DNA from: a virus
DNA: 31,049 bases
Direction: 5' to 3' (one strand)
IMG/VR virus record: IMGVR_UViG_3300044970_000297
Coordinates: 1 to 31,049 of that record
The notes beneath the pieces are model-generated. The model worked only from the letters and a program-made list of their open reading frames with translations, was not told the origin of the DNA and made no database searches. Position numbers and translations under genes: made by a program. This document shows, one piece after another, positions 22,963 through 25,802 of this stretch (its first letter is position 1; the number at the start of each line of letters is the position of its first letter).

Positions 22963-23129
22963 TTTGTGTAATTTATTATAGCATCTAAATAATCATTGTA
23001 TAACTTTTCGTTGAAAGAACCGCCTTTATCTTCAGGACAAATTTTAGTTACCCATTTACGCTTTAAATAAGCTACGTTAGGACGGTGTGGAAAATACGTG
23101 TTAACCACGTTTTTAATTTTTGACTTCAT
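22959..23129 (-). CDS. 56-aa basic early micro-protein
   Basis: Reading runs from ATG 23129 to TGA 22959, with ATGA overlap into the 89-aa gene, and its start lies 17 bp inside the 48-aa gene. The product begins MKSKIKNVVNTYFPHRPNVA, continues KRKWVTKICPEDKGG and ends NDYLDAIINYTK. Short proteins ending this way are common in Bacteroidota phage early regions. It is basic and may bind nucleic acid. Confidence 0.7.
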   Translation of the reverse strand: MKSKIKNVVNTYFPHRPNVAYLKRKWVTKICPEDKGGSFNEKLYNDYLDAIINYTK

Positions 23130-23259
23130 CTCTTTTATTTTTAGAAATTAATACTAAAGATAAACATAATACGCCAGCACCTAATAATAAATAGCTTTCG
23201 TAGTTAGCACCCAACAAAATAATTATTGAGTTAATTAAAATTCCAGTTTGTTTTTTCAT
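23113..23259 (-). CDS. 48-aa membrane micro-protein
   Basis: Reading runs from ATG 23259 to TAA 23113. Two hydrophobic stretches, about 6-17 (GILINSIIILLG) and 23-40 (YLLLGAGVLCLSLVLI), end in a basic tail (SKNKRDEVKN). It would insert in the inner membrane as a hairpin. It lies in the early operon between the 71-aa and 56-aa genes. No function known. Confidence 0.65.
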   Translation of the reverse strand: MKKQTGILINSIIILLGANYESYLLLGAGVLCLSLVLISKNKRDEVKN

Positions 23260-23672: not shown

Positions 23673-23697
23673 AAAAAACCCCTACCGAAATAGGGGT
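23673..23697 (-). terminator. Terminator at the end of the late (lysis) operon
   Basis: A perfect 7-bp stem ACCCCTA / TAGGGGT with a 6-nt loop (TTTCGG) is followed by a run of six T on the minus strand. It lies ~50 bp after the last lysis-region gene and separates late from early transcription. Confidence 0.85.
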
Positions 23698-23735
23698 CAA
23701 TCATAAATTAAACAAAGCATCGTATGAAATGCGTA

Positions 23736-23748: not shown

Positions 23749-24036
23749 TTATTTTCCTACTTTGAAACGTCTTAAAATAAATTTTACTATTCTTTTAGCA
23801 ATTGCCTTCCACAAAACCCCCTTCGCCTCAACTTTCACCTCAACGCCCTCGGGGGTCTTTTCCACGTGAATATCTATATTCTTTGAATCTAAATTAAATT
23901 CTTTGTTTATTTCGTCACGTACTATTTTAATGTCTACGTTCTTCGTGTCAATGTCTACTTTTAAGCTTGTACCATCTTTTTCTAAATTTAGATCGAAGTT
24001 ATCCGTATCTATTTTAACTGTTTTTTTCTTTGCCAT
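23749..24036 (-). CDS. Repeat protein with antimicrobial-peptide-like C-terminus (95 aa)
   Basis: The first ~70 residues contain three beta repeats with an exact 20-residue period: DTDNFDLNL (10-18), DTKNVDIKI (30-38), DSKNIDIHV (50-58). Residues 73-95 (VLWKAIAKRIVKFILRRFK) form a cationic amphipathic helix like a membrane-active peptide. It is the last gene before the terminator, 6 bp after the M15 endolysin. No spanin (lipoprotein box, Rz-like coiled coil) is visible, so it could take the outer-membrane disrupting role of the disruptin type. This is inference from charge pattern and context; a host-modifying membrane protein is the alternative. Confidence 0.7.
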   Translation of the reverse strand: MAKKKTVKIDTDNFDLNLEKDGTSLKVDIDTKNVDIKIVRDEINKEFNLDSKNIDIHVEKTPEGVEVKVEAKGVLWKAIAKRIVKFILRRFKVGK

Positions 24037-24042
24037 AATTAT

Positions 24043-24417
24043 TTATTTAGTCCAACGTGCAGCCGTGCCGCGAGTGTCGTAATGTATCCACGTACTATAT
24101 ATTCCTAAACCGCCTTGTTTCATTTTACCTGAAGCTATTAATTTTTCAATTATTGCCGCTACTTGTTTAGGGGTGTAACCTTCAATCTTTAAATCCGCAG
24201 CTTGTCCCGTAATATGACGCGATTTACTTGCTCCTTTAATCTTAGCATTAAATTCCGCGTTTCTGTAACCGCTCGTTATCTTAATAGGCTTCTTTACTTC
24301 ATCACGTAAAACTTGTAAGTTCTTCGCAAGTTCTTGAATGTTACGCAAAATAGTTTCAGTAAGCGGAAAATTATGCTTATTGAACTCGTTTAAATTAAAA
24401 TTATTAGTTAGCTTCAT
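24043..24417 (-). CDS. M15-family peptidoglycan peptidase, endolysin (124 aa)
   Basis: It should cut peptide bonds in peptidoglycan at lysis. The M15_3-type zinc site is visible: SRHITGQAAD (66-75, with H68 and D75) and WIHYDTRG (110-117, with H112). The upstream motif ITSGYRNAEFN (47-57) is also typical. There is no signal peptide and no separate wall-binding domain, so a holin is needed for release. It lies between the holin-like gene and the 95-aa repeat protein, together a lysis cassette. Confidence 0.92.
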   Translation of the reverse strand: MKLTNNFNLNEFNKHNFPLTETILRNIQELAKNLQVLRDEVKKPIKITSGYRNAEFNAKIKGASKSRHITGQAADLKIEGYTPKQVAAIIEKLIASGKMKQGGLGIYSTWIHYDTRGTAARWTK

Positions 24418-24420
24418 AAA

Positions 24421-24672
24421 TTATTTTTTCGCTAATTTACGATTTTTATTTTCAAGTACCGCTACCGTGTCACTTTTTACACTTGGTAAAGTCGGTTGTT
24501 TTTCTTCAATAGGTTTTCTATTGTAATATTCGTTTTTATCTAAACAGTTGTATAAACGCTCTTTAACGTCTTGCACCTCGAAATGCGTGTACGTTAACCA
24601 TAATGCAAGTACACCGACTGCGCCTTGTTTTTTTATCACTTCTAAAAATTGTGTAATAGGTATCATTTTCAT
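24421..24672 (-). CDS. Holin-like single-helix membrane protein (83 aa)
   Basis: One hydrophobic segment near residues 16-30 (QGAVGVLALWLTYTHF) follows an amphipathic N-terminus, and the rest is charged (VKERLYNCLDKNEYY, then KNRKLAKK). The arrangement, QG-rich membrane helix then acidic/basic helix, recalls BhlA/UviB-type holins. It lies 3 bp before the M15 endolysin, the expected place. ATG at 24666 would remove two residues. Alternatively it could be a spanin-like anchor, but no coiled coil of spanin length is present. Confidence 0.65.
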   Translation of the reverse strand: MKMIPITQFLEVIKKQGAVGVLALWLTYTHFEVQDVKERLYNCLDKNEYYNRKPIEEKQPTLPSVKSDTVAVLENKNRKLAKK

Positions 24673-24675
24673 AAA

Positions 24676-24903
24676 TTAGTTTTCAATTGGTGGAAAAGGT
24701 GAAGGCTTAGGCTCGAACGGACTCAAAGAAATATCTAATAAATATGCATATTCAGTTGGCTTAATATCTGCCTCATCCTGTTCACTTAAGAATAAAAAAT
24801 ATACATCATTAATATCTTGAACAAAGTTAAAGAATGTATCTGAATCAAAGAATACTCCTTGTAATTCTTCTGCTTGTTGGTTTGTTACTATTCTACCTTC
24901 CAT
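24676..24903 (-). CDS. Small acidic protein after the fibre gene (75 aa)
   Basis: The pattern QAEELQGVFFDSDTFFNFVQ (about 10-29), then DINDVYFLFLSEQDE, and a Pro-rich end (PFEPKPSPFPPIEN) is one I know from small genes following tail fibres in Flavobacterium phages. It is coupled to the fibre gene by TAATG and may be a fibre chaperone or tip attachment factor. The short Pro-rich end could be a peptide ligand. No experimental role known to me. Confidence 0.72.
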   Translation of the reverse strand: MEGRIVTNQQAEELQGVFFDSDTFFNFVQDINDVYFLFLSEQDEADIKPTEYAYLLDISLSPFEPKPSPFPPIEN

Positions 24904-25802
24904 TATACTTGTCTACTTAAAGTTGTTTGATATGCTTGAACAGCTGTGTAAAAGTTAGCTGCATCCGTATCTGTTAAGCCGTCACCTATTGAAGCAAAGG
25001 CGCATTGTTTAGTTGAATAAGAACTTATTACACCAAGTGTTGTATTATTTGAAGCCCCTATAAATAAATTACCATTTGGCAAAGAATTTACATTCGTACT
25101 TGTGTTTGTTCCTAACGTAGTATTATTTTTATATAATTTATGATTTGTACTTGTTGTTCTTGCACTTATATAAAAACCAGTTGAAGCAGCTATTGAAGCA
25201 GATATTCTTTGATTATAATTATAATGGTCAGATATTTCAGCTCCTACAGTTGTTCCTAATGCCATGGTTGGATTATCTCCAGCTTGATATATTGCTATTT
25301 CTCTTTGAACTGCTGAAACATTAGTTCTTGAATAGAAACTTAAATGAGTTGAATTTAATGTTAAAGCAGAACTTGGGTTTAAAAAAGTATTGGCATAAGC
25401 ACTTGAACCATTAGGCGTCATCCCTGTACTTGAATGTGTCCACCCAGTTGCAAAAGTCAATCTGAATGCAGCATCTAAATCTCTTGGGTCTTTTAAATTC
25501 CATTTGTGACTTGCAGCAGTACCACCAACTATTGGATAAATTGCTTTGAACTTTGTCCAAAGTGAATAACCTTTTAAGTCAGTTACCAAAGTATTTATTG
25601 CACCTTGTTGAGTAGTGTCTGTTATTGAAGCGGCTGTTATGAATGCTTGTGCGTCAGGGTCTGTTGTAATACCTACAATATCCGTTAAACCCGCCCAACT
25701 ATCTGCATGAATATCACCCCAACCTATTGCATTATTTGCACCTTGCCCCCAACCTATTGTATTATTTGAAGCACCGTCGCCCCATCCATTTGCATTTGCC
25801 AT
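24903..25802 (-). CDS. Putative tail fibre / receptor-binding protein (299 aa)
   Basis: The N-terminus has repeated Gly/Trp/Asn motifs (NGWGDGASNN, IGWGQGANNA, IGWGD; residues 5-31), which I know from fibre-like proteins of Flavobacterium phages. A helical part (~50-80, FITAASITD and INTLVTDLK) precedes a beta-rich Ser/Thr/Asn-rich domain (~100-299) of likely concanavalin-A or jelly-roll type (YSLWTKFKAIYPIVGG, LSFYSRTNV). Composition and site before the lysis genes fit a receptor-binding protein. No depolymerase motif seen. Confidence 0.72.
   Translation of the reverse strand: MANANGWGDGASNNTIGWGQGANNAIGWGDIHADSWAGLTDIVGITTDPDAQAFITAASITDTTQQGAINTLVTDLKGYSLWTKFKAIYPIVGGTAASHKWNLKDPRDLDAAFRLTFATGWTHSSTGMTPNGSSAYANTFLNPSSALTLNSTHLSFYSRTNVSAVQREIAIYQAGDNPTMALGTTVGAEISDHYNYNQRISASIAASTGFYISARTTSTNHKLYKNNTTLGTNTSTNVNSLPNGNLFIGASNNTTLGVISSYSTKQCAFASIGDGLTDTDAANFYTAVQAYQTTLSRQV

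Follow-up and report, generated by a model that had tools for sequence, protein, structure and literature searches.

It is an open question by what means spanin-less phages breach the outer membrane. Phages of this kind are listed in PMC6139136, and 13% of the tailed phages of Gram-negative hosts have no identifiable spanins according to the figure that PMC12819732 quotes from Kongari 2018 (PMC6139136). The question is raised anew by a gene, here termed Q, in the IMG/VR virus record IMGVR_UViG_3300044970_000297, of which positions 1 to 31,049 (31,049 nucleotides, the whole stretch analysed) are termed the window. The original prediction was that Q encodes a possible new lysis effector, a set of 20-residue beta repeats fused to a cationic amphipathic helix, which may destabilise the outer membrane in the final lysis step.

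Gene Q and the lysis cassette of the window

The gene order in the window is an 83-aa holin-like gene, an M15 endolysin gene, Q and a terminator, all on the minus strand. The holin candidate (24421..24672) has one moderately hydrophobic segment and is weakly assigned by position; none of its segments exceeds the 19-residue transmembrane (TM) cut-off, and its best PHROG match is to phrog_2429 at only E 0.087. The endolysin (24043..24417) is a 124-aa M15_3 peptidase that matches PF08291 at E 5e-20 and the endolysin family phrog_894 at E 6e-34. Q itself (23749..24036) is translated into 95 amino acids, MAKKKTVKIDTDNFDLNLEKDGTSLKVDIDTKNVDIKIVRDEINKEFNLDSKNIDIHVEKTPEGVEVKVEAKGVLWKAIAKRIVKFILRRFKVGK, and an intrinsic terminator at 23677..23698, directly past its stop codon, ends the late/lysis transcript. 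Q had been described as the last gene after holin-like and M15 genes, and the terminator directly behind it bears this out. The reported lack of a recognisable spanin holds as well: a scan of the window revealed no lipoprotein open reading frame suited to be an o- or u-spanin, and the Q protein has no lipobox.

Two other open reading frames of the window are of interest. One, at 23113-23259 beyond the terminator, encodes a 48-aa membrane protein that follows Q in 21 related loci and is a possible extra holin-like gene. The other, at 24903-25802, consists of 299 amino acids without a family match and starts with short repeats, NGWGDGASNNTIGWGQGANNAIGWGD, possibly the attachment segment of a tail fibre.

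The Q protein has a Lys-rich amino terminus, three 20-residue beta repeats and a cationic C-terminal helix. The repeat motifs are DTDNFDLNL at residues 10-18 (23983..24009, minus strand), DTKNVDIKI at residues 30-38 (23923..23949, minus strand) and DSKNIDIHV at residues 50-58 (23863..23889, minus strand); the second is the best-conserved stretch of the family. The exact 20-residue spacing originally noticed is confirmed by the translation and by shuffling. When residues 8-66, limits that were set after the repeat had been seen, are shuffled 5000 times, the lag-20 self-similarity is never matched; shuffling of the whole protein matches it in 2 of 5000 cases, and the best local self-match is equalled in 0/2000 shuffles. 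The three repeats are not due to chance.

Of the cationic amphipathic helix that was also proposed, the charge is upheld, with a net value of +8 for residues 73-95, and the amphipathicity is only mildly above what composition gives. The helical moment over 18 residues is 0.56, and as 14% of random rearrangements of these residues attain this value, amphipathicity beyond composition is modest in the window member. The helix is placed at residues 74-92 (23761..23817, minus strand) by DSSP in both of two AlphaFold models, which are of low confidence (pLDDT 62, pTM 0.5). The two models agree on seven short strands (residues 5-71) that form a meander and are followed by the helix. Since the predicted strands form a meander, each 20-residue repeat would represent a hairpin, and the alternation of hydrophobic and charged residues suggests a sheet with one hydrophobic face; both readings depend on models with a pLDDT of 62.

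Structure comparison with Foldseek detected three short viral proteins in BFVD, A0A516MG98, A0A6J5NSC8 and A0A6J5N5W7 (E 1.6e-5 to 2e-3, 29-34% identity, lengths 75-107), which are probably members of the Q family already present in databases, and no match at E < 0.001 in the PDB. OspA, the CPAP G-box and the phi92 spike were considered as fold relatives with VIA-align and rejected, as their Z of ~7 is within the background stated for the tool. The Toastrack family DUF4097 (PF13349) has a similar style of short beta repeats. Its best E among 12 Q members is 9e-4, but the member L249 scores 17.2 bits, below the curated cut-off of 22.9, and the window protein is not listed at E <= 0.1; a distant fold relation is possible.

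A family found behind five types of endolysin

The Q family is previously undescribed. The window protein has no significant match in Pfam, PHROGs or the PDB, and one of its relatives matches phrog_3255 at E 0.0017. Each profile scan of IMG/VR viral contigs yielded 207-274 confirmed relatives. No relatives were confirmed in bacterial genomes in two scans limited by their pattern seeds, and a tblastn search of named phages gave nothing usable; low-complexity masking was modest there, and distant relatives would score too low. In 32 records examined with the profile, Q is always present as one copy, second pieces being the same or a directly adjoining open reading frame.

Members are 63-107 aa long and share a core, [DN]-I-[ND]-I-D-T-K-N-V-D-I-K-I-x-R-K-D-G, found two or three times over; their start is rich in Lys and their C-terminus basic. 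The 24 C-terminal residues of all 135 unique sequences have a positive net charge, between +2 and +9, and the median pI is 9.5. Purifying selection is indicated by a median dN/dS of 0.12 (28 pairs). No TM segment was detected in 153 Q cores (cut-off, a 19-residue window >= 1.6), and cysteine is found in one of the 153. Putative in-frame hydrophobic N-terminal extensions lie upstream of Q in L115, L063, L090 and L160. In the group with M15_4 endolysins the extension begins 4 nt inside the endolysin stop, and that of L160 is TM-like.

More than 140 viral relatives were fetched by homology to Q alone, so that lysis genes had no part in the search by which the context loci were collected; these are environmental IMG/VR records, which may be incomplete or fragments. 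The same gene does occur after endolysins elsewhere. After deduplication there were 150 loci in which a gene precedes Q. In 142 of them this gene encodes a peptidoglycan hydrolase, with Q immediately 3′ of it, and the hydrolases are of five unrelated types: LDT-like (53), CHAP (49), M15_3 (22), Amidase_2 (11) and M15_4 (7). One further locus is a gene-calling artefact in which a CHAP scan gave a CHAP endolysin on the same contig. The start of Q is at most a few bases away from the endolysin stop, with median gaps of -4 to +6, and a terminator-like hairpin follows Q in 67/143 loci vs 20/154 after other genes. That Q is a lysis-cassette gene is strongly supported.

Homologues away from lysis genes, which had been thought to speak against a lysis function, exist to a limited extent, with the 142 lysis-linked loci set against seven (L049, L183, L234, L238, L247, L248 and L249) in which the homologue is flanked by the genes for the major capsid protein and a connector-like protein. 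These seven carry an extra C-terminal domain that resembles small post-capsid proteins, and their position next to the major capsid gene means that the Q beta module is not confined to lysis. In G010, which has a capsid-linked homologue, the lysis cassette is separate from it and encodes a signal-plus-TM protein but not Q.

The LDT-like type corresponds to the endolysin family phrog_33083 and has a conserved H and SxGC. Putative endolysins of this kind in Q cassettes (L044:5474-6022 and relatives) also match phrog_3000 and carry the H..SxGC motif; distant relatives are found in crAss-like and Bacteroides phages (L275, L276, L277). The 182-aa gene was not accepted as a proven L,D-transpeptidase, as it displays only the motif and the phrog_33083 endolysin match, with no significant match in Pfam or the PDB. 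A signal-plus-TM protein is encoded just upstream of the LDT-like endolysin in L251 (5872-6150, minus strand) and in L482; the relative in L482 has a lipobox and that of G010 has none.

Spanins of Flavobacterium phages

Cultured Flavobacterium phages offer a comparison. The CHAP endolysin of Q cassettes is 57.5% identical to Fpv5 gp17, the end of which is overlapped by 11 nt by gp18 (L281 19301-19885). Gp18 has a lipobox, LIIGC, and a C-terminal TM segment and on this basis represents a u-spanin. The same two features are found in 6H gp36 (L285 29452-30006, minus strand) and 11b gp49 (L286 28129-28593), which also directly follow the endolysin, and in FCV-1 gp20 (L282 11428-11811) and hemulen6-1 gp03 (L283 1382-1771), u-spanins located three or four genes past it. 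The endolysins of hemulen6-1 and FCV-1 share 59% and 74% identity with Q-cassette endolysins. The five u-spanins were previously unannotated, and phrog_5885 is common to three of them. In P12024L neither a u-spanin nor Q was found. A u-spanin-like open reading frame is thus present in 5/6 cultured comparison phages vs 0/24 records with Q in a lysis cassette.

Mutual exclusion was assessed at loci anchored on CHAP, M15_3 and LDT-like endolysins. By a strict rule (lipobox plus TM), u-spanins occur in none of 56 loci with Q vs 22 of 133 without it (Fisher p 2.5e-4), and by a relaxed rule (N-terminal signal plus C-terminal TM) in 0/56 vs 33/133 (p 2e-6), p-values that ignore shared ancestry. At CHAP loci alone the values are 0/47 with Q vs 7/12 without. 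The lipobox scan gives a few false positives, from overlapping frames or multi-TM open reading frames, and the rule misses some real u-spanins and so undercounts in the group without Q. By these criteria many cassettes without Q likewise lack a u-spanin, so that a missing spanin does not in itself prove replacement. The TM proteins at positions -2/-3 of CHAP cassettes were considered as hidden i-spanins and set aside, since no partner lipoprotein was found; attempts to establish their homology with 6H gp38/gp39, which are arranged in a similar way, did not succeed.

Q and the u-spanins (T1 gp11 type) of Flavobacterium phages occupy the same place in the late lysis cassette, immediately behind the endolysin or not far from it, and no tested locus contained both. 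Beta structure is also described as abundant in u-spanins (PMC6139136). Q, unlike them, has no signal, lipobox or TM segment, nearly always lacks cysteine and for these reasons is not itself a spanin; its profile gave nothing significant against the Flavobacterium u-spanins. As it sits where cultured relatives carry a spanin, Q probably replaces one.

Possible mode of action and rival explanations

The favoured explanation, somewhat probable on the sequence evidence, is that Q is a third lysis-cassette gene, a spanin replacement that leaves the cytoplasm by way of the holin lesion to destabilise the outer membrane. Q would be made late, together with the holin and endolysin. With no signal, lipobox or TM segment, it would stay in the cytoplasm until the holin lesion opens, and through this lesion it would enter the periplasm. 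The endolysin would then remove the wall, after which Q would destabilise the outer membrane, most likely by binding of the cationic C-terminal helix to the anionic inner face. The helix may be presented or clustered by the repeated beta module, the D-T-K-N-x-D turns of which are invariant.

Exclusion of u-spanins, placement in the lysis cassette and position at the operon end are what one would predict for an effector that acts on the outer membrane in place of spanins, and to this extent the original prediction of a destabiliser in the final lysis step is partly supported; the membrane action assigned to the helix fares less well, given its moment and the pLDDT of 62. From the models, the helix as the disrupting part is weakly supported, and the chief alternative is that, instead of acting on membranes, it simply lies against the hydrophobic side of the sheet. 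The closest functional analogue, only provisionally, is the PhiKT disruptin (Holt 2022), which PMC12819732 describes as a short amphipathic helical peptide. Compared by that description, both are cationic and soluble, with a predicted helix that in Q is only mildly more amphipathic than its composition gives, in a phage without a recognisable spanin; Q differs in its repeated beta module, which brings the total to 63-107 aa. By this analogy, Q might work as a disruptin does.

Four rival explanations account for parts of these observations. A role in assisting or regulating the endolysin or holin (as a chaperone, inhibitor or lysis-timing factor), with no effect on the outer membrane, would fit a start only a few bases from the endolysin stop and an operon and terminator in common, but partnership with five unrelated endolysin families disfavours a specific enzyme partner and u-spanin exclusion is left unexplained, which makes this reading unlikely. 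Still less likely is a membrane-tethered spanin derivative, in which the beta domain would span or bridge the membranes, anchored by the helix and, in some lineages, by the N-terminal hydrophobic extension. Occupation of the u-spanin position and the in-frame hydrophobic upstream extension of some members, TM-like in L160, agree with such a derivative; most members, that of the window included, are without signal, TM, lipobox or cysteine, however, and the Q profile does not significantly match the u-spanins it would derive from.

Similarly improbable is a virion or capsid-associated protein whose place after the endolysin would only reflect the end of the late operon. The seven homologues between major capsid and connector-like genes, fused to a post-capsid-like domain, are what this reading calls for, but it must contend with the 142/150 loci that are lysis-linked, with an extra domain that is missing from the other members and with an exclusion of u-spanins for which it does not account. 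Passenger genes are often found at the end of late operons, and no family match points to a function for Q. It might therefore be a passenger unconnected to lysis, acting in superinfection exclusion, host takeover or anti-defence. Passengers are usually patchy, whereas the placement of Q is fixed across five endolysin types under strong purifying selection, and this has the slightest chance of the four.

The spanin replacement remains the preferred reading of Q. There is a nearly even chance that Q represents a widespread family of soluble outer-membrane disruptors that displaced u-spanins in Flavobacterium-like phages across the five unrelated endolysin types. If so, spanin substitutes would be known as a family defined by homology and not as a single peptide. 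The diversity of disruptins complicates their systematic prediction (PMC12819732). A family that can be identified from sequence, keeps to the spanin slot and does not occur alongside spanins would open part of the question of how spanin-less phages breach the outer membrane to direct tests, and it would offer a route to finding more spanin-substitute genes.
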